Positions 70-13,002 of a stretch of DNA of 64,000 nt are shown here, piece by piece. Made by a program: the position numbers and the translations under genes. Within the stretch, counting starts at the first letter, position 1, and each line of letters starts with the position of its first letter. The notes beneath the pieces are model-generated. The model worked only from the letters and a program-made list of their open reading frames with translations. It did not search any database and was not told the origin of the DNA. The DNA comes from Anaerohalosphaera lusitana (GTDB lineage Bacteria; Planctomycetota; Phycisphaerae; Sedimentisphaerales; Anaerohalosphaeraceae): assembly GCF_002007645.1 (NCBI RefSeq), contig NZ_CP019791.1, positions 992,001-1,056,000 on the forward strand, written 5' to 3'.

Positions 70-636
70 TTGAGAAATATCTCAGGCGTGGTCCAAAGAT
101 TTTGGATTTCTATTGACCATCCTGCAGTACATGATTCACGGGCGGAGCGTTTTTTGTCTAAGTCGCTTTCCAAAAAGCAGTTAAAGGTCCTCAGCGTGAT
201 ACAGAAGGGCATGCCCCTCTCGGCAGCTCCGTATGCTGACATGGCGGAGTCTATCGGCATGGCGACCGAAGAATTTCTGGATGTTTTGCGGCAGTGGAAG
301 GATGATGGGACGATCCGCCGGGCCGGTGCGGTGGTAAACCACCTTCGAATGGGTGTTGCAGGCGGGATTATGGTGGCCTGGGATGTGCCCGATGATTCGG
401 TTGAAAGTGTCGGACACCTTTTCGCTGCCTTTAAGCAGGTTTCACATGCGTACGAGCGCCCGCGTGTGCCGGGATGGAAATATAACGTGTTTACTATGGT
501 GCACGGCGACACGCCGAAGGCGGTAGAAACGACCATCGACCGGATGAGCGAAAAAAGCGGCATTACAGATTTTCGCAAGCTCCGAACCGTGCGTGAGCTG
601 AAGAAGACCCCGCCTGTTTATGTCAAGGAAGAGTAA
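70..636 (+). CDS. ahbB: Siroheme decarboxylase, AhbB-type subunit
   Basis: AhbA and AhbB together remove the acetate carboxyls at C12 and C18 of siroheme to give 12,18-didecarboxysiroheme, the first committed step of siroheme-dependent heme synthesis. The protein has the Lrp/AsnC-like helix-turn-helix start (SKKQLKVLSVIQ) and the ligand-binding half with HAYERPRVPGW and WKYNVFTMVHG, the latter typical of AhbB rather than AhbA. The start is uncertain: the longest frame opens at TTG 70, but TTG 154 has GGAG 7 bases upstream and gives 160 residues, nearer the family length. The first 28 residues of the long form do not resemble the family. It stands 9 bases before a CcsA-like gene and leads a heme operon. 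Bases 1-69 hold no recognisable gene; two in-frame stops lie at 43-48. The family call is firm; the start is not. Confidence 0.88.
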   Translation: MRNISGVVQRFWISIDHPAVHDSRAERFLSKSLSKKQLKVLSVIQKGMPLSAAPYADMAESIGMATEEFLDVLRQWKDDGTIRRAGAVVNHLRMGVAGGIMVAWDVPDDSVESVGHLFAAFKQVSHAYERPRVPGWKYNVFTMVHGDTPKAVETTIDRMSEKSGITDFRKLRTVRELKKTPPVYVKEE

Positions 637-645
637 AAGACCGCT

Positions 646-1542
646 ATGCAGAATATTTCCCTTATTGAAAATGCTTTTTTGTTTGCCGGTGCAGCCTTTT
701 ATCTGGCTGCGGCGGTTCTGGGGATGGTGCGCCTTTATAAAGAAGTGAACATGCCCGCCGGCCTGCTTGCAGTTCTGATAGCCTTTGGCAGCGTTATGCT
801 TGCGGGCGTATTATTTGCAAGAGGATTCGAAAAAGGCCAGGTCCCGCTGGTCGATACGTTTGAATTTGTGCTTGCCCTGACCGTTGTATTCAGCCTGGCC
901 GAGTTTTTTACACCCCACAACTTGCGAAAGGGCTGGTTCGAGGCGGTCCTGTCTTTGCTGCTGTTCGCCCTCACCGTTACTGGATTCTCACTGGCCGGAC
1001 CGGTCGGTACGCTTGACCCTGCAGTAAAAACACCGTGGGTTCTGGTGCACGGAATTTCGATGCTTGTTGCGGCGGCGGCGATTTTCTTTTCAGCAGCAAT
1101 GGCATACCTGCTGCTTGTGGGCAGAAGCAAATTGAAAAGCAAGAACCCCCTGCATGTGATCGGTAAGATGCCCAGCATCGAAAAACTCGCAAAGCTCAAC
1201 ATGCTGGGCCTGCGACTCTGCACTGCAGCGATGACCTTCGGTATCGTCAGCGGTATCGGCATGGCGTTAAGTCAGGCCGAGGCAATCGATATGACCGCCG
1301 GCGACTGGCTGGTGGACGGCAAGATAATTCTCATCATGCTGGTGTGGGTGCTTCTTATAATTATATTGCTGATGAATGTATTTGCGGGTATCAGTTCGCG
1401 TGCAATTGCATATGTAACCATTGGTGCATTTCTCCTGGCTTTGCTTGCGATCGTGGGCGTGGCCGTGCTGGGCGGGGGGGCTCACGATTTTCTAGCATAT
1501 GCAGGATCGTTTCGTACGGAAGGGGGTGTTCTGTGCGGATAA
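646..1542 (+). CDS. CcsA/HemX-like integral membrane protein
   Basis: A 298-residue polytopic protein with about eight hydrophobic helices. It belongs to the cytochrome c assembly (CcsA/ResC/HemX) superfamily: WVLVHG at about residue 130 and AHDF near the C-terminus are the places where this family carries its conserved histidines, and FEFVLAL lies in the expected early helix. Family members bind or export heme in cytochrome c maturation, or, as HemX beside hemA, affect glutamyl-tRNA reductase levels. The stop overlaps the hemA start by 10 bases, the usual hemX-hemA arrangement, so a HemX-like role is the better guess. No ccsB/resB partner is in the window, which weakens a full cytochrome c maturation role. 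The exact function is inferred. Confidence 0.8.
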   Translation: MQNISLIENAFLFAGAAFYLAAAVLGMVRLYKEVNMPAGLLAVLIAFGSVMLAGVLFARGFEKGQVPLVDTFEFVLALTVVFSLAEFFTPHNLRKGWFEAVLSLLLFALTVTGFSLAGPVGTLDPAVKTPWVLVHGISMLVAAAAIFFSAAMAYLLLVGRSKLKSKNPLHVIGKMPSIEKLAKLNMLGLRLCTAAMTFGIVSGIGMALSQAEAIDMTAGDWLVDGKIILIMLVWVLLIIILLMNVFAGISSRAIAYVTIGAFLLALLAIVGVAVLGGGAHDFLAYAGSFRTEGGVLCG

Positions 1543-2840
1543 TTGCGTTGGGAATAAATCATAAGACCGCGCCCGTGGAACTCCGGGAACGGCTGGCGTT
1601 CGATGAAGTTGCTGCATTGTCAGCTCTCGGAGCACTCAAACAGCAGAACCCGTCCGGCGAATTTGCACTGCTTTGCACCTGCAACCGTGTCGAACTTTAT
1701 GCAGCGATAAAAAAAGATTGCGATCTGGCCGCTGACGACCTTCTGTCAACGCTGGCTGAATGCAAGGGCATTGATGCTTCTGCGATTCAACCCGCCGTAT
1801 ATGTTTTGGAAGGTGTCAAGACTGTCCGGCATCTGCTGACGGTCGCGTCCAGCCTGGACAGCATGGTGATCGGCGAACCGCAGATCATTTCACAGGTCAA
1901 GGACAGCTACCGTCTGGCGTGCAGGAACGGCTTCACCGGCAAAGTGCTGAACCACCTTTTCCACACCGCCTTCAGCACCGCCAAAAAGGTCTACTCCGAC
2001 ACCTCCATAACAAGCAGACGCGTTAGCGTCGCCGGCGTCGCGGTCGAGCTTGCGGGCCAGCTTTTCGACAAGGTCGCATCAAACAAGGTCACGGTGATCG
2101 GTGCGGGCGAGATGAGCGAACTGCTCGTTGAGCATTTCAAGCAGGCAGGCTGCAAGGATATCTCCGTCGTTAATCGCTCACCCAAACGCGGACGCAAGCT
2201 GGCGCGAAAATACAGCATAGAACACCACGGCTGGGATCAGCTTGGCGAGCAGATACGAAACGCCAGTATACTGGTCGGTGCGGCCGGCAGCGATGAGGGG
2301 TTTCTTTTTGACAGGGACAGCTTTGCCGATCTGCTTTCAAAACGGCGAAAAGGTTCGCTGCTGCTTATCGACATTGCAGTGCCGCGTTGTTTCGACCCCG
2401 CCATCAATGACCTTGAAAATGCGTACCTTTACAGCATCGACGACCTTGCAGGCGTTGCCCAGAAGAACGTCAAGTTCCGCGAGGAGGAAGTCGAGAAAGC
2501 GGTAGAGATGATCTGCGAGCAGGCTGACGATTTTATGGAATGGTTCGACATTCGAGACGTTGGCCCCGTCATCGGCAAGCTCAAACACCGCTTCGAACAG
2601 ATACAGCGAGCCGAGATGGAAAAGTTCTTCACCAACTGCAGCCAGGAACACGTGTGCAGGCAGTCGATGGAAACGACCGTCAGCAGGGTGGTGAACAAAC
2701 TGACGCACTGTGTTATAAAGAACATTGATCAGGTCGCTCGCGAGCAGGGGGCCGCCGACGCTGCAAGGCTGGCACACAGGATGCTTGCTGAAGCCGAAGA
2801 GATCGCTGCCAAAGCCGGCGATAAGGAGGATGCCACATGA
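1533..2840 (+). CDS. hemA: Glutamyl-tRNA reductase
   Basis: Reduces glutamyl-tRNA(Glu) to glutamate-1-semialdehyde with NADPH, the first step of C5 tetrapyrrole synthesis. The 435-residue protein starts VRIIALGINHKTAPVELRER, has the catalytic Cys50 in CTCNRVELY, the signature SSLDSMVIGEPQI, an NADPH-binding GAGEMSELL near residue 190 and the C-terminal dimerisation helix with EQAD and a KLTH segment. GTG 1533 is chosen because AGGGGG stands 6 bases before it and the family N-terminus begins there; a longer open frame upstream from 1344 runs through the CcsA-like gene and is not used. It overlaps the next gene by ATGA, so translation is probably coupled. Heme often controls this enzyme post-translationally; nothing visible here settles that. 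Confidence 0.97.
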   Translation: MRIIALGINHKTAPVELRERLAFDEVAALSALGALKQQNPSGEFALLCTCNRVELYAAIKKDCDLAADDLLSTLAECKGIDASAIQPAVYVLEGVKTVRHLLTVASSLDSMVIGEPQIISQVKDSYRLACRNGFTGKVLNHLFHTAFSTAKKVYSDTSITSRRVSVAGVAVELAGQLFDKVASNKVTVIGAGEMSELLVEHFKQAGCKDISVVNRSPKRGRKLARKYSIEHHGWDQLGEQIRNASILVGAAGSDEGFLFDRDSFADLLSKRRKGSLLLIDIAVPRCFDPAINDLENAYLYSIDDLAGVAQKNVKFREEEVEKAVEMICEQADDFMEWFDIRDVGPVIGKLKHRFEQIQRAEMEKFFTNCSQEHVCRQSMETTVSRVVNKLTHCVIKNIDQVAREQGAADAARLAHRMLAEAEEIAAKAGDKEDAT

Positions 2841-3901
2841 TGCCCAGCAACGGTAAGAACAAACGTACACTGCGACTGCTCTTCTGGGAAAGCACGATCA
2901 AATGTAATCTGACGTGTTCACATTGCCGCAGGGTCGAGGGTGACGAGCAGGTCGGTACAGATATGACCACCGGCCAGGCGAAATCACTTATCGACCAGCT
3001 TGCTGAGCTGGGCAAATCACAGGACTTTATGCCCATACTGGTGTTCAGCGGCGGCGAACCGCTTTGCCGGGACGATGTTTTCGAGCTTGCCGGATACGCG
3101 GGCGATCAGGGCCTTCGAACCGCACTTGCGACCAACGGCACAATGATCGACGCCGAAACCGCGGCCCGGATCGAGGATGCGGGCTTTGCACGGGTTTCGA
3201 TAAGTCTGGACGGCGCGACCGAACAAGTACACAATAAGCTCCGGCAGGAGCCCGGCTGTTTCGATGCTGCCCTGAACGGCATGGCGGAACTGCAGAAGGC
3301 GAATGTGCCGTTTCAGGTTAATATGACCATGACCAGGCACAACGCTCATCAGCTCGATGATATTTTCAATCTTGCCAAAAATATGCGGGCCCAGGCGGTG
3401 CATCTTTTCATGATGGTGCCGGTCGGCTGCGGTGAGCAGTTCAACCAGGCCGACATGCTCGACGCCGACGAATACGAACAGATGATGAAGCGTATCGCGG
3501 CGACCGAACGAAGCGGAAATATCGAGGTCAAGGTGACCTGCGGACCGCATTACGAGAGAGTCAAACGACAGACACAGCATCAGTCCGCAAGAAGCCGCCA
3601 TCCGTCAAAAGGCTGTCTGGCCGGCTCAGGCGTGATCTTCATAGGCCACCAGGGAGATGTCTTCCCGTGCGGCTATCTGCCTGTCAATTGCGGCAGCGTT
3701 CTGCGGCAGCCGTTGGCGGACATCTGGCACGGCAGCGAGGATCTTGCAAGAATGCGCGACGCGAACCGGCTTACCGGCAAGTGCGGCATATGTGAATTCA
3801 AACGTCTTTGCGGCGGATGCCGCGCCCGAGCCTACGCTGCCACCGGCGACTACATGTCCGAGGAACCGTTCTGTGCATATGTCCCGAAAAACCTGAAATA
3901 G
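2837..3901 (+). CDS. ahbD: Heme b synthase AhbD (radical SAM)
   Basis: AhbD oxidatively decarboxylates the two propionates of Fe-coproporphyrin III to vinyl groups, giving heme b. The 354-residue protein has the radical SAM triad Cys23, Cys27 and Cys30 (CNLTCSHC), FSGGEPL, and a C-terminal auxiliary-cluster region with CGICEFKRLCGGCRARAY followed by EEPFC, a pattern typical of AhbD. It starts at ATG 2837 inside the hemA stop; a second ATG lies at 2840. AAGGAGGA at 2822-2829 is a strong ribosome site. It is followed after 18 bases by the paralogous ahbC. AhbD is told from AhbC by the CGGCRARAY tail and by the short N-terminus before the first cysteine motif. Confidence is high for the pathway and good for the exact step. 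Confidence 0.92.
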   Translation: MMPSNGKNKRTLRLLFWESTIKCNLTCSHCRRVEGDEQVGTDMTTGQAKSLIDQLAELGKSQDFMPILVFSGGEPLCRDDVFELAGYAGDQGLRTALATNGTMIDAETAARIEDAGFARVSISLDGATEQVHNKLRQEPGCFDAALNGMAELQKANVPFQVNMTMTRHNAHQLDDIFNLAKNMRAQAVHLFMMVPVGCGEQFNQADMLDADEYEQMMKRIAATERSGNIEVKVTCGPHYERVKRQTQHQSARSRHPSKGCLAGSGVIFIGHQGDVFPCGYLPVNCGSVLRQPLADIWHGSEDLARMRDANRLTGKCGICEFKRLCGGCRARAYAATGDYMSEEPFCAYVPKNLK

Positions 3902-3919: not shown

Positions 3920-5173
3920 ATGATAAACATTACCAGGCTCTACTGCGATGAGATGACACCCGGCGACTGGATACGTTACGGACGCAACGGCCACGGCACA
4001 ACAGGCAAAACGGATAAACTGCCGACTTCCGCCCGCCGGCGAAAGCCTATCGTGGTCTGGAACATCACCAGCAAATGCAACCTGCGCTGCGTCCACTGTT
4101 ACAACGACAGCGGCTGCGATATAAAGTCTAACGAGGCGACCACGTCCGAAGCGAAGGCGGTACTGGACGATCTTGCCGACTTCGGCGTGCCCTCGGTGCT
4201 GTTCAGCGGCGGCGAACCGCTGATGCGCGACGACCTGTTCGAGCTGATCGACCACGCCCGGGACAAGGGGCTGCGAACGGTCATTTCGACTAACGGCACG
4301 TTAATAACACCCGAACGAGCCGCCAAGATAAATGAGCTCGGCGTTTCATACGTCGGCATAAGTCTGGACGGTATCGGCGAGGTGAACGATCAGTTCCGTC
4401 AGGTCGACGGCGCGTTCGACCGCGCAGTTGCGGGCATTCGCAATTGCCAAAATGCGGGCGTCCGCGTGGGTCTGCGGCTGACACTCACCAAACGCAACGT
4501 ACAGGACCTCGACGCATTGTTCGACTTCTTCGAGCAGGAAAACATCGAGCGTGCATGCTTCTATCATCTCGTGCCCAGCGGACGCGGCAAGGACATTTCA
4601 GACGCACGACTGACACACGAACAGTCCCGCCATGCGGTCAACACCATCATCGAACGAACAGCCGCTCTTTCAAAGCAAGGCAGACGCACCGACATACTCA
4701 CCGTGGACAATCACGTCGACGGCGTATATCTTTACCGCAAGCTCAATGCCTATGACTGCGAACGGGCCGAGAAGGTCTGGCAGCTTCTGACCTGGAACGG
4801 CGGCGGTATGAACAGTAGCGGTATCGGCATCGGCTGTATCGACTTCAACGGCAAAGTGCATGCCAATCAATTCTGGGGACATTACGACATCGGCGACATC
4901 CACGAGCGAAAGTTCAGCGACATCTGGACCGACGAATCAGACCCGCTGCTGAAAGGACTCCGCGACCGCCGCAGCAATATTAAGGGGAGATGCAGACTTT
5001 GCAAGTACTTCGACGCGTGCGGGGGCAGCCTCCGCGTCCGCGCCGACCTGTACTTCGGCGACACATGGGCCCCCGACCCTGCCTGCTATTTGACCGACAA
5101 AGAGATCGGTCTGGACGATGCCGCGATCCAAGAACTCAAACGCTCCGGCGAACTTTACGACATGCCCGAATGA
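3920..5173 (+). CDS. ahbC: 12,18-didecarboxysiroheme deacetylase AhbC (radical SAM)
   Basis: AhbC converts 12,18-didecarboxysiroheme to Fe-coproporphyrin III by removing the C2 and C7 acetate side chains. The 417-residue protein begins MINITRLYCDEMTPGDWIRYG, a family-specific N-terminus, followed by the radical SAM cysteines Cys53, Cys57 and Cys60 (CNLRCVHC), FSGGEPLMRDDL, and a C-terminal cluster region with CRLCKYFDACGGSLRVRA and DPACYL. The AhbC tail CGGSLRVRA differs from the AhbD CGGCRARA. AGGAAAGTG before ATG 3920 is a ribosome site. This is the last gene of the plus-strand run ahbB-ccsA-hemA-ahbD-ahbC, which converges on hemL. Confidence 0.92.
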   Translation: MINITRLYCDEMTPGDWIRYGRNGHGTTGKTDKLPTSARRRKPIVVWNITSKCNLRCVHCYNDSGCDIKSNEATTSEAKAVLDDLADFGVPSVLFSGGEPLMRDDLFELIDHARDKGLRTVISTNGTLITPERAAKINELGVSYVGISLDGIGEVNDQFRQVDGAFDRAVAGIRNCQNAGVRVGLRLTLTKRNVQDLDALFDFFEQENIERACFYHLVPSGRGKDISDARLTHEQSRHAVNTIIERTAALSKQGRRTDILTVDNHVDGVYLYRKLNAYDCERAEKVWQLLTWNGGGMNSSGIGIGCIDFNGKVHANQFWGHYDIGDIHERKFSDIWTDESDPLLKGLRDRRSNIKGRCRLCKYFDACGGSLRVRADLYFGDTWAPDPACYLTDKEIGLDDAAIQELKRSGELYDMPE

Positions 5174-5233: not shown

Positions 5234-6514
5234 CTATTTAGGTTCGAACGATCTCACAGCCTTCAACGTCTGTTCGATGTGTCTGTCCGTGTGCGTGGTC
5301 GACAGGAAATTCGCCTCGAACTGGCTCGGTGGTACGTAAATCCCGTTTGCCGTCATGTGCTGGAAATACTTCGCATACATCTTCGTATCACAAGCCGCCG
5401 CACCGTCGTAGTCGGTTACCGGCTCATCGTTAAAGAACAGTGTGAACATGCCGCCCATGCGATTGATCGTGTGCGGTATGGATTTGGCCGTGAGAATTTC
5501 GTCAATCCCGTCCGCCAGTTTCCTGCCCGAATCGCCCAACTTCTTGTATGGCTTTTCCGCCTTTAGCGCCTGCAGCGTAGCCAGCCCCGCCGACACGCAA
5601 ACCGGATTGCCCGACAGCGTACCCGCCTGGTAGATCGTCCCGTCCGGTGAAAGATTGTCCATCACAGCAGCCGGTCCGCCAACGGCGCCAACCGGGAAAC
5701 CGCCGCCGATGATCTTGCCCATGCACGTCAGGTCAGGCTGGACCTTGAGCATTTTCTGTACGCCGCTGAACGTAAACCTAAAGCCCGTGATGACCTCGTC
5801 GAATATCAGCATCGACTTGTTTTTGCTGCAAAGCGTACGCAGCCCTTCCAGAAAACCCTCCGCTGGCGGTATCGTCCCCATATTCCCAGCGATCGGCTCT
5901 ATGATCACTGCCGCAATATTCTTGCCCTGTTTCTTGAACAGTTCCTTTGCAGCATCCAGATCATTGTATGGCAGCAGCAGAGTGTTCTTCGCAAAGTCGT
6001 CCGGCACGCCCGGGCTCGACGGCGACCCGAATGTTGCAAGCCCCGAACCCGCGCTAACCAGCATATGGTCGACGTGGCCGTGATAGCATCCGATGAACTT
6101 CACGATGATGTCCCTGTCCGTGGTCCCGCGAGCCAGCCGAACCGCTGTCATAACCGCCTCGGTCCCGGAGCTGACCAGCCGCACCTTGTCGATCGACGGC
6201 ACAGCAGTTGCGATCGTCTTTGCAAGCTGCGTCTCTATTTCCGTCGGTATGCCGAAGCTCGTGCCCTTGCCGAGCGTCTTTCGAACAGCATCCAGAACAG
6301 GCTTGTACGCGTGTCCGAGTATCATCGGCCCCCACGACAGACAGTAATCAATAAACCGGTTGCCGTCCGCATCATACAGGTATGGGCCCTTCGCCTTGTC
6401 GATGAATATCGGCTGTCCACCCACAGCGTTCAAAGCCCGCACCGGGCTGTTAACTCCGCCGGGGATGTATTTCTGTGCATTTCGAAAAAGACGTTTGCTC
6501 GTTGTCAGCTTCAT
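5234..6514 (-). CDS. hemL: Glutamate-1-semialdehyde 2,1-aminomutase
   Basis: PLP/PMP enzyme that converts glutamate-1-semialdehyde to 5-aminolevulinate. The 426-residue length is standard. Visible hallmarks are GGVNSPVRA near the N-terminus, YHGHVDH, the PLP phosphate region SSGTEA, FDEVITGFR and the Schiff-base Lys267 in MGKIIGGGFPVGA. AAAGGAG stands 6 bases before the ATG. It lies 15 bases downstream of cobA-hemD on the minus strand and ends at an intrinsic terminator, so the two probably form a transcript. With hemA and hemB in the same window, the C5 route to porphobilinogen is complete. Confidence 0.97.
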   Translation of the reverse strand: MKLTTSKRLFRNAQKYIPGGVNSPVRALNAVGGQPIFIDKAKGPYLYDADGNRFIDYCLSWGPMILGHAYKPVLDAVRKTLGKGTSFGIPTEIETQLAKTIATAVPSIDKVRLVSSGTEAVMTAVRLARGTTDRDIIVKFIGCYHGHVDHMLVSAGSGLATFGSPSSPGVPDDFAKNTLLLPYNDLDAAKELFKKQGKNIAAVIIEPIAGNMGTIPPAEGFLEGLRTLCSKNKSMLIFDEVITGFRFTFSGVQKMLKVQPDLTCMGKIIGGGFPVGAVGGPAAVMDNLSPDGTIYQAGTLSGNPVCVSAGLATLQALKAEKPYKKLGDSGRKLADGIDEILTAKSIPHTINRMGGMFTLFFNDEPVTDYDGAAACDTKMYAKYFQHMTANGIYVPPSQFEANFLSTTHTDRHIEQTLKAVRSFEPK

Positions 6515-6529: not shown

Positions 6530-7930
6530 TTAGCGTCTCTGTCTTTCTGGTATGATCTCGATGTCCATGCCGAATTGTTCCGCCACCTGCTGTGTAGGCC
6601 GGCCAAGACATATGCCCCGCACATTCTCAGGCAGCTCACCGAACTTGTTAACGAACGCTCTCACCGTCGAGCCGCTTGTGAACAGCACCTTATCGATATA
6701 GTCAAAGTCCACCTCACCCGGATCGATCTCCACTGTGCGGTACATCGCGACCTTGTCCACCTTCGCGCCCATCTCCTCCAGCCCATCCGGCAGCTCCGCA
6801 GAAGAGACCTCCGCCTGAGGCAGCAGCACTTTCTTTCCTGCCATATCCAGCTTAGCAAACCCCTCCAGCAGTCCTTGACTTGCTTGCAGATCGGGTACAA
6901 TATCCGCACTGATGCCGAACTCCGCCAGCGTCTCAGCGGTCGTCCTGCCGATCACTGCAAATTTTACATTCGCAAACGAACGTGCATCCAATCCCTTTTC
7001 ATCCGCCAGCTTGAAGAAATGCCGCACGCCGTTGGTGCTCGTGAAAACGATCCATTCATACCGCTCCACACCTTCGATCATTTTCTCAGCACTCGAATAA
7101 TCATCCAATGGCTCGATGTCGATGATCTGTTTGTGAATGATAACACCGAGATGCTGATACTTCTCCGGATGCGTTCCCAGCATCAGGATCTTGGGCTCAC
7201 GCGCGAACCATCCCAGCTTTCCACTGAGCTGTCCGACACCTCCGACAATGAATATCGCCGGCATTCTCAACGGCGTCTTTTCTATGACCTCCGCAAAATC
7301 CGACAGCGTCCCTTTCACGACTCGCTGATCGTAGCATGTACCATGTTCGACCGCCGCGATCGGCGTATTCTCATCATACCCCGCATCGATTATCGACGGT
7401 ATCAGTCCCGCGATGTTTCGCACAGACATCATCAGCACCAGCGTATCCGCCTTCGGTATCTCGATCGGCCGGTCATCCCCTTTCTTGCGATGGCCGGTAA
7501 TGAACGCAACGCTCGACGAAAAATCCCTGTGCGTCAGCGGTATTCCCGCGTAACAGGCCGACCCAAGCGGACTCGTTATGCCCGGCACCACTTCGAAATC
7601 CACTCCGTCGTCTTTGCACTGTGCAGCTTCCTCGCCGCCCCGGCCGAACAGATACGGATCGCCTCCCTTGAGCCGGACCACTGCATACCCCGCATTCGCC
7701 CGCTCCACCATAAGATCGTTGATCTTATCCTGCGGCAGCGTATGCTCACCCGCAAATTTGCCCACGCATATCAGCTCGGCGTCCGCTTTCGCATGATCCA
7801 GCACCTCCAAAGGTATCAGGTGATCGTACAATATCACATCCGCTCGGCCGATCAGCCGTTGCGCCTTGATCGTAAGCAGCTCCGGATCACCCGGCCCGGT
7901 GCCTATCAAATAGACCTTGTTGCGTTTCAT
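6530..7930 (-). CDS. cobA-hemD: Uroporphyrinogen-III C-methyltransferase / uroporphyrinogen-III synthase fusion
   Basis: A two-domain fusion of 466 residues. Residues 1 to about 245 are SUMT (CobA): the SAM-binding start KVYLIGTGPGDPELLT, VRLKGGDPYLFGRGGEE and the VVPGITS region. Residues from about 250 are HemD (uroporphyrinogen III synthase), with FTSTNGVRHFF and the C-terminal LFTSGSTVRAFV. HemD cyclises hydroxymethylbilane to uroporphyrinogen III and CobA methylates it at C2 and C7 to precorrin-2, feeding siroheme to the Ahb enzymes. ATG 7930 (MKRNKVYLIG) is chosen because the SUMT domain begins there, AGGG precedes it and a good promoter lies upstream; an open frame reaching 8116 adds residues of no family resemblance. 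hemC, usually next to this fusion, is absent from the window. Confidence 0.94.
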   Translation of the reverse strand: MKRNKVYLIGTGPGDPELLTIKAQRLIGRADVILYDHLIPLEVLDHAKADAELICVGKFAGEHTLPQDKINDLMVERANAGYAVVRLKGGDPYLFGRGGEEAAQCKDDGVDFEVVPGITSPLGSACYAGIPLTHRDFSSSVAFITGHRKKGDDRPIEIPKADTLVLMMSVRNIAGLIPSIIDAGYDENTPIAAVEHGTCYDQRVVKGTLSDFAEVIEKTPLRMPAIFIVGGVGQLSGKLGWFAREPKILMLGTHPEKYQHLGVIIHKQIIDIEPLDDYSSAEKMIEGVERYEWIVFTSTNGVRHFFKLADEKGLDARSFANVKFAVIGRTTAETLAEFGISADIVPDLQASQGLLEGFAKLDMAGKKVLLPQAEVSSAELPDGLEEMGAKVDKVAMYRTVEIDPGEVDFDYIDKVLFTSGSTVRAFVNKFGELPENVRGICLGRPTQQVAEQFGMDIEIIPERQRR

Positions 7931-7975
7931 TATTACCCTGGAAATAACCTTGAAAGATAGATTCTCAAGTGAACA

Positions 7976-8004
7976 TTTATAAGGCACCCCGCCGGCATGG
8001 TCAA
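7976..8004 (-). promoter_or_regulatory. Sigma70-type promoter for cobA-hemD
   Basis: On the minus strand TTGACC (7999-8004) is separated by exactly 17 bases from TATAAA (7976-7981). It lies 46 bases upstream of the chosen cobA-hemD start and is divergent from the glycosidase promoter, whose -35 box begins 28 bases away. Confidence 0.65.
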
Positions 8005-8031
8005 TAACAAAGCGCTTGTTAAAACCCTGCA

Positions 8032-8060
8032 TTGACACCCGCTGGGCTAACAGGTAAGAT
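8032..8060 (+). promoter_or_regulatory. Sigma70-type promoter for the GH36-like gene
   Basis: TTGACA (8032-8037), a 17-base spacer and TAAGAT (8055-8060): the best -35 box in the window. It gives a leader of about 125 bases before ATG 8194 and could also carry transcription on into ahbA, 21 bases beyond the glycosidase. Confidence 0.65.
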
Positions 8061-8193
8061 GATTTTCTAGAAGCTTTTTCAAATCTGAGTTTTGAAACCG
8101 CTTCTAATAATGGCATGCGGATAAACCAGCATGGTTCCCGCCAAGTTGCCTGCGATAGTGAAAAGAGTGTGAACTAATACCATGGAGAAAGAT

Positions 8194-10737
8194 ATGTCCA
8201 AGCGAGCTTTTTTAATGCTGTTTTTATTGTCATGCGTTGTTCCGTCCCTATTCGCAGCCGAATGGGTCGGATCTGAGCCTGGTAAACCCAAGACCTCGCA
8301 AGACGGTAACGCATTTATTCTTCAAAATGACGTCATATCTGCTTCCTGGAAGATTCAGGATGACTCTCTAAAGCCGGAAATGATCGTAAACAAGATCACC
8401 GGCCGCAAATGGTCCCAGCAGAATACTAGCCTGTTCAAGATTTCTACAGTGGCAAAGGATGCACCAAAAAGCACTGACTGGCTCTACCTCGGCATACAGG
8501 TAAAAGGCAACAGTGTAGATGCCGTCATCTCACATGATGGCGATTCGTGGACAGTTGTGAAATCTTACCCAAGGACGGATTTCCCCGGCCGGCCAACCGC
8601 TGTTCGGCTCGGTAAGATGGATCTGCAGGCCTCTTTGAATGACTATGTGGATATTGGCCAGATAGGCACTTCGTACTACACGGATTTCGAGGTCTCAACC
8701 GACACGGATACTCGCACAGTATCGTTTGACGATCCCGGCTGGCGAAAGAAGGTTTCCAAAACCGAAGGCACCCGGATCGACCTCGTTTCCGAAATGACAA
8801 CCATCACTGCAGCCGCCAACACGGCCAGTTTCATCGAAAAGCATCTTCCGCAAAATGTGACCGCCGTTCAGTGCCGGATCAAAAAGGGCACCGACAAGGC
8901 AATGTCATGGTCCCCAGGTATCGCGCTTGTATGGGAGGACGGCCGGTTCATCCTGCTAAACCGCAGGACCGCTCAATACACTTTTGACGTCTCCAGCAAA
9001 GCGGGCGAAGCGATCATACAGAAGAAGCCGCAGCAGTACCCGGCATTTAACATTACATCTGAAGATTTCAGTATCAAAAGTTTTCCGAAGCTGTCAATTG
9101 CCGGCCATAAAGGAACGGTGCGTGCCCGGATCAAGGCCGTTCTCAAGCACAAAACCCGACCTCTGGAAGTCGACTGGACCGCGAGTTTGCGTGAAGACTC
9201 AAACTATGTCCGGGAAACACTGACTCTCTCCACGGACACCGGCAGCACAGCCATAACCGGGCTTGAGCTTTTTGACCGTCGTATCACCGGTGCTCAACAA
9301 GTCGGACGCGTCCCGGGCAGCCCTGTTGCAAACGACAGTATGTTCTTTGGCGTCGAACTGCCCGTCACAACCAACGTCATCGATTCTTCCGGTTTCAAAA
9401 GCGGCTTCGCATGCAAGCTGACTGTGGATAAATCAAATGCATACACATTCTCAACCGTTGCAGGCACATATCCCGAAGGACAGCTTCGAAGAAGCTTCCT
9501 CTACTACCTCGAACGCGAACGCGCCAACCCCTACCACGCGTTCCTGCATTACAATTGCTGGTATGATCTCGGTCTGAACCCAACTGAAAGCGGCTTGATC
9601 GAGGTCATTAAGGCATACGAAAAGAACCTCATTGACAAGTACGATGTTCAGATCGATTCGTTTGTCATCGACGACGGCTGGGACGATTTCAATGTCGGCC
9701 TGTGGGAAGTCGACAAGAAAAAATTCCCCAACGGCTTCGCCCCCGTCAAAAAAGCCCTCGACAGCATAGATTCCCATCTCGGTATCTGGATATCACCTCT
9801 GGGCGGCTACAGCGGCGCAGGCCAACGTACCGAGCACGCCAAAAATATGGGCCTGATCTCCCATCAGCTCGATCTTTCCGAACCCGGCTATTACAAATGG
9901 TATCGGGACGAATGCCTGTCGCTCATGAACGAATACGGCGTCAACTATTTCAAGTGGGACCGCGCAGGATCAGGCGTCAGCCCGCACTTCATGGCGCTGC
10001 TCCGTCTCGCTCGTGACCTTCGCAAAGAGAACCCGGATGTATTCATAAACGTGACCGTCGGCACCTGGCCCTCACCATTCTGGCTGAACCATGTCGATTC
10101 CACCTGGCGCAGCGGTGCGGACGTAGGCTGGACAGGAAAGGGCGACATACGCGAACGCTGGATCACCTTCCGTGATGCCGAGTGCTACAACCGCGTCGTC
10201 AAACAGGCCCCGCTCTACCCTCTAAGTTCCATCATGCATCACGGCCTGGTCCTCGGCTATCATTTCCAGGGCAAAAACATAAGCGAAGCCGGCGCGGACC
10301 TCAAGAACGAGGCCCGCTCATATTTCGCAGCAGGTCCCAATCTGCAGGAACTCTACCTCAGCCCGGATCTGATGACCGATGCCGCGTGGAAGCAGGTCGC
10401 CCAGGCTTACAAATGGTACGAGAAGAACGAGGACATAATGGCCGACACCCACTGGGTCGGCGGCAATCCCGCAGTTCTTGAACCCTACGGCTGGGCAAGC
10501 TGGTCCGCTGACAAAGCTGTACTGGGGCTTCGCAATCCTGACGACCAGGAGAAAACGATCAAAGTCGATCTTGACGAATTCTTCGAACTGCCCGATGACG
10601 CGCCGTCCAGCTATAAACTGCAAAGCCCCTACAAGGATCAGCGCATACAGAAACTCGAACTTCACGCAAACCAGCCGCATGCACTGACTCTCAAACCATT
10701 CGAGGTGCTGGTCTTCGATGCACTGCCGACTCAGTAA
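8194..10737 (+). CDS. Secreted GH36-like alpha-galactosidase (melibiase family)
   Basis: An 847-residue exported glycosidase: signal peptide MSKRAFLMLFLLSC...LFA, an N-terminal beta-sandwich, a central (beta/alpha)8 barrel and a C-terminal sandwich. The barrel carries FVIDDGWDDF, GIWISPLGGY, YFKWDRAG with probable nucleophile Asp589, and WRSGADVGW with probable acid/base Asp643, the GH36/GH27 pattern. ATG 8194 is preferred over ATG 8182 because GGAG lies 6 bases before it. The substrate is not readable from sequence; alpha-galactosides or a related alpha-linked sugar are likely. The gene sits inside the heme locus between cobA-hemD and ahbA with no metabolic link to heme, which suggests insertion or rearrangement; its codon use is like its neighbours. 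Confidence 0.85.
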   Translation: MSKRAFLMLFLLSCVVPSLFAAEWVGSEPGKPKTSQDGNAFILQNDVISASWKIQDDSLKPEMIVNKITGRKWSQQNTSLFKISTVAKDAPKSTDWLYLGIQVKGNSVDAVISHDGDSWTVVKSYPRTDFPGRPTAVRLGKMDLQASLNDYVDIGQIGTSYYTDFEVSTDTDTRTVSFDDPGWRKKVSKTEGTRIDLVSEMTTITAAANTASFIEKHLPQNVTAVQCRIKKGTDKAMSWSPGIALVWEDGRFILLNRRTAQYTFDVSSKAGEAIIQKKPQQYPAFNITSEDFSIKSFPKLSIAGHKGTVRARIKAVLKHKTRPLEVDWTASLREDSNYVRETLTLSTDTGSTAITGLELFDRRITGAQQVGRVPGSPVANDSMFFGVELPVTTNVIDSSGFKSGFACKLTVDKSNAYTFSTVAGTYPEGQLRRSFLYYLERERANPYHAFLHYNCWYDLGLNPTESGLIEVIKAYEKNLIDKYDVQIDSFVIDDGWDDFNVGLWEVDKKKFPNGFAPVKKALDSIDSHLGIWISPLGGYSGAGQRTEHAKNMGLISHQLDLSEPGYYKWYRDECLSLMNEYGVNYFKWDRAGSGVSPHFMALLRLARDLRKENPDVFINVTVGTWPSPFWLNHVDSTWRSGADVGWTGKGDIRERWITFRDAECYNRVVKQAPLYPLSSIMHHGLVLGYHFQGKNISEAGADLKNEARSYFAAGPNLQELYLSPDLMTDAAWKQVAQAYKWYEKNEDIMADTHWVGGNPAVLEPYGWASWSADKAVLGLRNPDDQEKTIKVDLDEFFELPDDAPSSYKLQSPYKDQRIQKLELHANQPHALTLKPFEVLVFDALPTQ

Positions 10738-10758: not shown

Positions 10759-11253
10759 ATGATAGAAAGCCTAAACTTGGACGATCTCGACAAAAGAATA
10801 ATCTCAGCACTGCAGCAGGACTTCCCCATCGCCCAGCGTCCGTATGATAGTATCGCGGAAAACCTCGGCCTCTCTGTCGATGTGCTTTTGGAGCGTACCC
10901 GCAAACTGCTTGCAGATGGTATGATCCGGCGCATTGGCTTCAGCCTCGACAGCCGCAAACTCGGCTATAAAAGCACGCTGGCTGCTGTTAGAATTCCTTC
11001 AGACCAGGTGCCGACCGCCGCGTCGATCATGGCCGACATACCCGAGATAACGCACAGTTACGAACGCGCGGACGAATTCAATGTCTGGTTCACCGTCATA
11101 GCGCCCGCCCGAAACGATATAGAATACATTCTCAAAAAAATCAAAGATGCACTGAATCTCTCAGACGCGGACATACTCGACCTGCCCGCCAGCCGTCTTT
11201 TCAAACTCGACGCAAGGTTCAGCCCACAGACCGAGGAAGACTGCAATGACTGA
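10759..11253 (+). CDS. ahbA: Siroheme decarboxylase, AhbA-type subunit
   Basis: Partner of AhbB in siroheme decarboxylation. The 164-residue Lrp/AsnC-like protein has an N-terminal helix-turn-helix (LDDLDKRIISALQQDF, DGMIRRIGFSLD) and a RAM-like half with HSYERADEFNVWFT, the AhbA version of the AhbB HAYERP...YNVFT segment. There is no clear Shine-Dalgarno before ATG 10759, so it may depend on ribosomes arriving from the glycosidase 21 bases upstream. It overlaps the next gene by 8 bases and is followed by hemB. AhbA and AhbB are encoded almost 10 kb apart, which is unusual for subunits normally made side by side. Confidence 0.88.
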   Translation: MIESLNLDDLDKRIISALQQDFPIAQRPYDSIAENLGLSVDVLLERTRKLLADGMIRRIGFSLDSRKLGYKSTLAAVRIPSDQVPTAASIMADIPEITHSYERADEFNVWFTVIAPARNDIEYILKKIKDALNLSDADILDLPASRLFKLDARFSPQTEEDCND

Positions 11254-12004
11254 GGATGCTCGCACGTTCGACAATGCCTGCGGATCGCTTGCTAATGTCA
11301 CAAACCTTCTGCGCGAAGAATTCAGTGAATCCAAATGCAGCGCAATCGCAGAAGCTGCCGATACGGTCGCTCGAACCCCCGATGAGTTAATGCCTGCATT
11401 GTGCTGCCTGACCGCGTTTCAAGCTTGTGCCACACCAGATGCGTTAGAACAAAAGCAAACAGCCGTCAAACTCGCCGCTGCGATGCAGGCTCTGGACATG
11501 GGTTTGACCATTCATGAAAATGCGTTCAATGATAGCTATGAGCAGGTTGACAAAGATGCCACTTACTTGATCGTCCTTGGCGATTATCTTTACTCACTGG
11601 CATACCAGCTCATATGCGAGCTTAAAAATACTGAGTTAATGAGTCTGACCGCTGATACAGTCGCAAGTGTTACAGCCGCGGCACTGGCGTGCGAAGTAAA
11701 CCAGCAACACGACACCAGGGCGGCCAAACAGACAGCATTTCGATCCTATCTCTACGCCCTGTGCTGCGGATCGGCGGGCATACTGACGAATGCTTCCCAA
11801 AACACCAAGGCCGAACTGTCCCGAATTGGAACCGAGCTGGGCAAGGCTCATGATGCGGTCATATCGAACCGACCTGAAAAAGATATCACCGCGCATATCA
11901 GAAGAGCCCGGGATGCCGTAAACGCCAACAAAGAAATATTGCGAATCGAACCCTTTTACGGTTTAATTGATTTTATCAAGTCGCTTGCGCAGCAAGCACA
12001 ATAA
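11246..12004 (+). CDS. Degenerate trans-prenyl synthase-like (HepS-like) all-alpha protein
   Basis: A 252-residue, predicted all-helical protein. The segment YLIVLGDYLYSLAYQLI resembles the GDYLL helix of trans-isoprenyl diphosphate synthases. The place of the first aspartate-rich motif reads IHENAFND instead of HDDxxD, so it is unlikely to be catalytic alone. Length and motif loss match the non-catalytic HepS subunit of heterodimeric heptaprenyl diphosphate synthase (about 251 residues in Bacillus) better than a full enzyme. It overlaps ahbA by 8 bases and lies 29 bases before hemB, so it is co-expressed with heme genes. Possible roles are a regulatory or partner subunit for a prenyl synthase, or a heme-pathway accessory. 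The family assignment rests on short motifs and is only moderately secure. Confidence 0.55.
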   Translation: MTEDARTFDNACGSLANVTNLLREEFSESKCSAIAEAADTVARTPDELMPALCCLTAFQACATPDALEQKQTAVKLAAAMQALDMGLTIHENAFNDSYEQVDKDATYLIVLGDYLYSLAYQLICELKNTELMSLTADTVASVTAAALACEVNQQHDTRAAKQTAFRSYLYALCCGSAGILTNASQNTKAELSRIGTELGKAHDAVISNRPEKDITAHIRRARDAVNANKEILRIEPFYGLIDFIKSLAQQAQ

Positions 12005-12033: not shown

Positions 12034-13002
12034 ATGTTTCCAACCGTTCGCATGAGACGCTTACGCAATAACGACGCAACCCGCAGGCTCGTCCGCGAGA
12101 CCACGCTTAATGTGGACGATCTGGTCTACCCGCTCTTCGTATGCCCCGGCGAATCCGTCAAAAGGCCCATCAAAAGCATGCCCGGCTGCTTCCATTTTTC
12201 GCCCGACAAGATCATCGAAGAGGCTAAAGAGATAGCCCATATGGGCATCCCCGCGATCATGCTGTTCGGCCTGCCCGAAACCAAGGACCCAACCGGCTCC
12301 GACGCATCGAACGAGTCCGGCCCCCTCTGCAACGCCATCCGCAATATCAAAAAGTCCGTCCCCGAATTACTCATAATCACCGACGTATGCCTCTGCGCCT
12401 ACACAGACCACGGCCACTGCGGAGTCATAAGCAACGGCAAGGTAGACAATGACCGGACCATCGCTCTGCTCGCAAAGACAGCTCTCGCTCACGCCAACGC
12501 CGGCGCCGACATGGTCGCCCCCTCCGACATGATGGACGGCAGGGTAAACGCCATCCGTCGCTTGCTCGACGAAAAAGCCTTCGAACAAGTCGGCATCATG
12601 TCATACTCCGCAAAATTCGCCAGCGCCTACTATGGCCCGTTCCGCGACGCTGCCGGCAGTTCACCCGCATGGGGCGACCGCAGAGCGTATCAGATGGACC
12701 CCGCCAACGGCAAACAGGCAATGCGTGAAATGCAGCAGGACATCGAAGAAGGCGCCGACATCATCATGGTCAAACCCGCGCTGGCATACCTGGACATCAT
12801 CGCAAACGCCCGCCGCCGTTTCGATCTGCCCATTGCCGCCTACAACGTCTCCGGCGAATACATGATGCTAAACGCCGCCGCCGAAGCTGGACTCATCGAC
12901 CACAATGCGACCATCATGGAAACGATGCTCTCCTTCAAACGAGCAGGCACCGACATCATAATCACCTACTTCGCGAAGGAAGTCGCCAAATTGCTGCAAT
13001 AA
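12034..13002 (+). CDS. hemB: Porphobilinogen synthase (5-aminolevulinate dehydratase)
   Basis: Condenses two 5-aminolevulinate molecules to porphobilinogen. The 322-residue protein has both Schiff-base lysines, Lys194 in SYSAKFAS and Lys247 in MVKPALAY, and the zinc-type cysteines Cys119, Cys121 and Cys129 in DVCLCAYTDHGHCG, so it is a Zn-dependent form rather than the Mg-only form. Start MFPTVRMRRLR is the family start; AAAGGA stands 9 bases before ATG. It closes the plus-strand heme run and converges on scpB with 16 bases between stops and no obvious terminator. Confidence 0.97.
   Translation: MFPTVRMRRLRNNDATRRLVRETTLNVDDLVYPLFVCPGESVKRPIKSMPGCFHFSPDKIIEEAKEIAHMGIPAIMLFGLPETKDPTGSDASNESGPLCNAIRNIKKSVPELLIITDVCLCAYTDHGHCGVISNGKVDNDRTIALLAKTALAHANAGADMVAPSDMMDGRVNAIRRLLDEKAFEQVGIMSYSAKFASAYYGPFRDAAGSSPAWGDRRAYQMDPANGKQAMREMQQDIEEGADIIMVKPALAYLDIIANARRRFDLPIAAYNVSGEYMMLNAAAEAGLIDHNATIMETMLSFKRAGTDIIITYFAKEVAKLLQ

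Follow-up and report, generated by a model that had tools for sequence, protein, structure and literature searches.

A degenerate polyprenyl diphosphate synthase homologue in an alternative heme operon, possibly retained as a non-catalytic prenyl-synthase subunit

Here we show that P0001, a 252-residue predicted protein encoded within the Ahb-type heme cluster of Anaerohalosphaera lusitana, is very probably a truncated, catalytically dead and rapidly diverging orthologue of PPS-A at a locus that joins heme and quinone genes. PPS-A is one of the groups of polyprenyl diphosphate synthases in the order, and its members are full-length and catalytically intact. P0001 has lost the catalytic motifs of these enzymes and has kept the helix through which they are predicted to dimerize, and on this pattern we give an even chance to the idea that it is maintained as a non-catalytic member of a heteromeric prenyl synthase. 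All positions refer to the window, which is the whole 64,000-nucleotide stretch of DNA analysed.

Results

P0001 is embedded in a complete Ahb-type heme cluster

The cluster comprises ahbB, ccsB, hemA, ahbD, ahbC, hemL, cobA-hemD, ahbA and hemB (Table 1), and hemC lies just 5' of the window start. AhbA is the best NCBIfam model for the gene upstream of P0001, with a score below its cut-off. As originally noted, P0001 overlaps this gene by 8 bases and is followed by hemB after a gap of 29 bases, and the overlap with ahbA suggests that P0001 is co-translated with heme enzymes. The start context is good, with GAGGA immediately 5' of the ATG, and an open frame of 252 codons has a chance of 7e-6 in random sequence of the base composition of P0001. 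Codon bias is weaker in P0001 than elsewhere in the locus (GC3 0.52 versus 0.58-0.74 in its neighbours), with a coding score of 0.076 versus 0.19-0.64. A separate 851-residue open reading frame (8182-10737) is inserted between cobA-hemD and ahbA; it matched nothing in Pfam or NCBIfam at 1e-5 and by eye looks alpha-galactosidase-like (GH36-like).

Table 1. Features of P0001 and of its heme gene neighbours in the window
Feature	Position	Strand	Evidence
ahbB	70..636	+	NCBIfam AhbB 159.5 bits, above cut-off 125
hemA	1527..2840	+	TIGR01035 366 bits
ahbD-like radical SAM heme synthase	2837..3901	+	TIGR04545 best, 387 bits
ahbC-like radical SAM	3920..5173	+	TIGR04546 best, 514 bits
hemL	5234..6514	-	TIGR00713 620 bits
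cobA-hemD fusion	6530..8116	-	TIGR01469 277 bits and HemD models
ahbA, siroheme decarboxylase alpha subunit	10759..11253	+	NCBIfam AhbA 133 bits, E 6e-39 (cut-off 140)
P0001, degenerate PPS-A-type polyprenyl diphosphate synthase homologue, 252 aa	11246..12004	+	ORF, PPS-A profile 60.5 bits, tree, AF2 model, Foldseek
IHENAFND, site of first Asp-rich motif (IHDDVLD), residues 89-96	11510..11533	+	alignment, motif columns
GDY helix, residues 109-129 IVLGDYLYSLAYQLICELKNT, probable dimer-interface helix E	11570..11632	+	identity to PPS-A, published interface helices
site of second Asp-rich motif (FQIIDDCKD), residues 202-213; no DDxxD	11849..11884	+	alignment, motif columns
hemB, porphobilinogen synthase	12034..13002	+	Pfam ALAD 499 bits; NCBIfam 502 bits

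P0001 belongs with PPS-A rather than HepS

We built profiles for the synthase groups of the order, including PPS-A and the other long-chain group, PPS-B, as well as for Bacillus HepS and HepT, with only confirmed HepS loci entering the comparisons. P0001 scored 60.5 bits against PPS-A, 16.1 against PPS-B, 14.2 against a small third group, 7.7 against HepS, 1.4 against FPPS and 0.9 against HepT. The PPS-A match is above chance, the best of 1725 scored composition shuffles of P0001 reaching 8.8 bits. The HepS-like label of the original prediction therefore does not hold, since P0001 is far closer to the catalytic, full-length synthases that relatives encode at this locus. Both Pfam families fell below their gathering scores, PF00348 with 22 bits (E 1.1e-4; gathering score 27) and PF07307/HepS with 19.7 bits over residues 70-145 (E 7e-4; gathering score 30), and the best PDB sequence match is a polyprenyl synthetase (E 1.5e-4).

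A maximum-likelihood tree placed P0001 inside PPS-A (99/99), next to the PPS-A proteins of two same-family genomes (89/84). Its branch is very long, at 7.6 substitutions per site, so that the placement rests mainly on profile scores and gene order. An AF2 model of P0001 (pLDDT 75.5, pTM 0.77) adopts the isoprenoid-synthase alpha-helical fold, in agreement with the predicted relationship to trans-prenyl synthases, and Foldseek matched it to octaprenyl diphosphate synthases, with the E. coli enzyme at the top (TMq 0.65); this comparison is partly circular because the input alignment included synthases. A single-sequence model (pLDDT 46.5) was too poor to judge the fold and was left unused.

The active site is erased and a putative dimer-interface helix is retained

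The GDYL of trans-prenyl synthases is retained at residues 112-115, and IHENAFND stands where real synthases align with IHDDVLD, both as first described, so that P0001 reads HENAFND instead of HDDVLD and has no first DDxxD. According to the alignment, the second DDxxD, the GKRxRP (GKxxRP) and the KT motifs are also absent, and the C-terminal third of about 90 residues is missing relative to PPS-A. With all catalytic motifs gone, the description of P0001 as a "dead" prenyl-synthase homologue is borne out.

The remaining similarity to PPS-A is unevenly distributed. Mean identity is 20%, whereas the GDY helix is 50% identical to PPS-A (permutation p=0.004), in a segment over which PPS-A members agree among themselves at only 55%. 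Conversely, the first Asp-rich (FARM) segment of P0001 is 18% identical to PPS-A, while PPS-A members agree there at 75%; the active site is the most conserved part of PPS-A, yet it is erased in P0001. Dimer contacts of trans-prenyl synthases are made by helices E and F (PMC7261888, PMC4356374), and the GDxLLxxAF pattern, read together with the published structure (PMC7261888), suggests that the GDY helix corresponds to interface helix E. A dimer-interface helix would then have been retained in P0001. Such an inverted pattern of conservation would be expected of a dimer partner without catalytic activity, and the combination of a kept GDY helix with an erased active site favours a partner subunit over simple decay.

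Relatives encode intact PPS-A at the same heme locus

As anticipated, homologues of P0001 lie near ahb or hem genes in other genomes of the order. One case is G033, with the layout ahbB-ccs-hemA-ahbD-ahbC / hemL-cobAhemD / ahbA-PPS-A, the same as at the P0001 locus; here, the gene after ahbA encodes an intact PPS-A of 343 aa (C51), whose best NCBIfam match is HepT TIGR02748, below cut-off. Such PPS-A proteins share with P0001 sequence (23-27% identity), locus and predicted fold, but have two DDxxD motifs, GKRxRP, KT and about 340 residues, whereas P0001 lost all of these motifs together with its C-terminus. Elsewhere the order is ahbA-nqrABCDEF-PPS-A (G077 and G004, the latter in the same family as A. 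lusitana), hemA-nqr-PPS-A (G014), hemC-nqr-PPS-A (G037) or nqr-...-menA-PPS-A (G142), and the PPS-A gene of G094 is about 4 kb away from ahbC-ahbD-hemA. Most other relatives have different genes after ahbA, with no prenyl synthase adjoining. The nqr genes were identified with NCBIfam models for NqrA, NqrB and NqrF, and only the NqrB match exceeded its cut-off. From the association of a Na+-NQR operon, a prenyl synthase and MenA, we infer that intact PPS-A makes quinone side chains; with PPS-A genes at the same heme locus in relatives, P0001 is most likely a degenerate orthologue of a quinone-tail synthase.

Several further arrangements were seen in the order. The sequence heme gene-nqrABCDEF-polyprenyl synthase is conserved (L180:2642-10109, L053:7814-15133, L051:101-8012, L056:774-8604), and the NqrA-like subunit of these operons has RnfC-like 4Fe-4S domains; RnfC itself is encoded at 0.56 Mb in A. 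lusitana. Many relatives have AhbA and AhbB fused in one protein of about 330 aa, and a 788-aa frame of G008 combines a radical SAM domain with AhbA-AhbB (L027:964-1968 (-), L031:109-2475). A polyprenyl synthase is fused to DUF116 in a 512-aa protein (L046:808-2346), and in several relatives a synthase domain lies in a frame of about 566-627 aa that is perhaps of the same type.

No second degenerate copy of P0001 was found in 161 genomes of the order or 397 of the class, and all other matches inspected there have both Asp-rich motifs. Likewise, no close relatives emerged when 84,980 species genomes were scanned by pattern, and translation of the 405-bp ahbA-hemB gap of G006 revealed no remnant of P0001.

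A candidate catalytic partner and an incomplete quinone pathway

The suggested look for a catalytic partner elsewhere in the genome yielded two catalytic synthases as candidates, one of the FPPS type (L007) in a dxs neighbourhood and a PPS-B of 336 aa (L008) at 4.14 Mb; a protein devoid of catalytic motifs thus coexists with catalytic synthases in the same genome. As the remaining long-chain synthase, PPS-B is the likely partner of P0001. It departs from the consensus at 4 positions against a median of 2, and looks like an ordinary self-sufficient synthase, which counts against the pairing. We considered accelerated evolution of this protein as a signal of co-evolution and discarded it; the branch is long, but 4 departures are unexceptional. 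At residue 130, where the interface helix normally shows a nearly invariant GD, PPS-B (L008:1324-2334 (-)) reads GG with all its catalytic motifs intact, and this D130G change may be read as a weak hint of co-evolution with a partner. Among 11 genomes with intact PPS-A, which were chosen for carrying it, PPS-B clearly co-occurs only in G094, and one match in G121 is unclassified. A. lusitana combines PPS-B with a dead PPS-A, namely P0001.

About 1-3 kb ahead of the window start, at about 0.99 Mb, genes for MenA (127 bits against a cut-off of 102) and UbiE (227 bits against 216) adjoin hemC (L107:10653-11609 and 12234-12959). This context, together with the nqr-PPS operons that relatives have at their heme locus, strengthens the proposed link between heme and quinones. 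MenD and MqnA/D were not found in the A. lusitana genome, so that a quinone would need an imported precursor, which counts against the subunit reading. Across the 161 genomes of the order, MqnA/D-type proteins occur in 18/161 and MenD above cut-off in 13/161, and UbiA-family proteins are near universal, which points to import of DHNA or to an unknown route to quinones. Porphyromonas pasteri, which has the same partial pathway, depends on imported DHNA (PMC9704088). A literature search for siroheme decarboxylase together with polyprenyl returned nothing related.

Discussion

Our combined profile, phylogenetic and gene-order analyses suggest that P0001 descends from a quinone-tail synthase, and we believe that it may well act as a non-catalytic subunit. 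In such a complex, the GDY helix of P0001 would pack against a catalytic long-chain synthase, the best candidate being PPS-B, and the heterodimer would tune chain length or activity. Its product could serve MenA as the side chain for a naphthoquinone precursor, with UbiE methylating the prenylated compound, and a place in the heme operon could serve the co-production of heme and quinone components. HexA of Micrococcus luteus, the plant GPPS small subunits and Dlp1/PDSS2 are independently evolved non-catalytic partners of catalytic prenyl synthases and provide a working analogy; P0001 shows no sign of common descent with them as subunits, and its own complex formation is putative. Non-catalytic partners without DDxxD include the small subunit of mint GPPS, HexA of HexA/HexB and HepS of HepS/HepT (PMC7839719).

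The main rival is that P0001 is a decaying relic, which we consider unlikely, though by no means negligible. PPS-B would have taken over long-chain synthesis, leaving the PPS-A gene to erode, and its functionless product would survive through translational coupling to ahbA and hemB. The near mutual exclusivity of PPS-A and PPS-B, with PPS-B beside a dead PPS-A in A. lusitana, fits such a replacement, as do the weak codon bias, the extreme branch length, the missing C-terminal third and the lack of a second degenerate copy in the genomes searched. However, 252 codons have stayed open despite about 80% divergence, a length that random sequence of this composition would rarely provide, the gene has a good start context and overlaps ahbA, and the surviving conservation is focused on the GDY helix rather than randomly spread.

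It is improbable that P0001 instead became an accessory of the heme pathway, for instance a scaffold or a binder of tetrapyrrole or prenyl ligands, that couples siroheme decarboxylation to hemB. The tight packing between ahbA and hemB with its 8-bp overlap and the loss of all catalytic motifs would agree with such a role. Relatives, however, carry an intact prenyl synthase at this position, often behind nqr genes, so that the position appears inherited and needs no heme role; moreover, most ahbA-bearing relatives have no prenyl synthase adjoining ahbA.

Finally, it is very improbable that the operon took up a genuine HepS (heptaprenyl diphosphate synthase component 1), a reading rejected on Pfam score, order-wide search, profiles and tree: the length (252 aa versus 251-260), the PF07307 match and a helix of the form GDY..S..Y.L..E.K recall HepS, but P0001 scores far higher against PPS-A, HepS is distant on the tree, where branches are long, no HepS exceeded the cut-off in the order (0/161), and P0001 has no hepT neighbour. 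A 'HepS' match in G140 was due to chance. Like P0001, Bacillus HepS (PF07307) is a non-catalytic prenyl-synthase homologue of about 250 aa with a GDY helix and no DDxxD, yet profile and tree set it apart as a separate lineage, and hepS adjoins menG and hepT in Bacillus L155 (hepS-menG-hepT), whereas P0001 adjoins ahbA and hemB. Any similarity in length and lost motifs would be convergent.

Returning to the subunit reading, a more specific form of it is a long shot: a pseudoenzyme made from the heme operon would adjust the output of a separate synthase to heme-pathway expression, so that a small respiratory module would receive heme and quinone in step, with the naphthoquinone head group imported.

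If P0001 is a relic, it represents an ordinary gene displacement. If it is a subunit, non-catalytic partners of prenyl synthases would have arisen independently once more, here with a catalytic ancestor identifiable at the same locus in relatives, so that the step from enzyme to subunit would be open to direct study. P0001 would then also tie the alternative (Ahb) heme pathway to prenylquinone supply in a concrete way.
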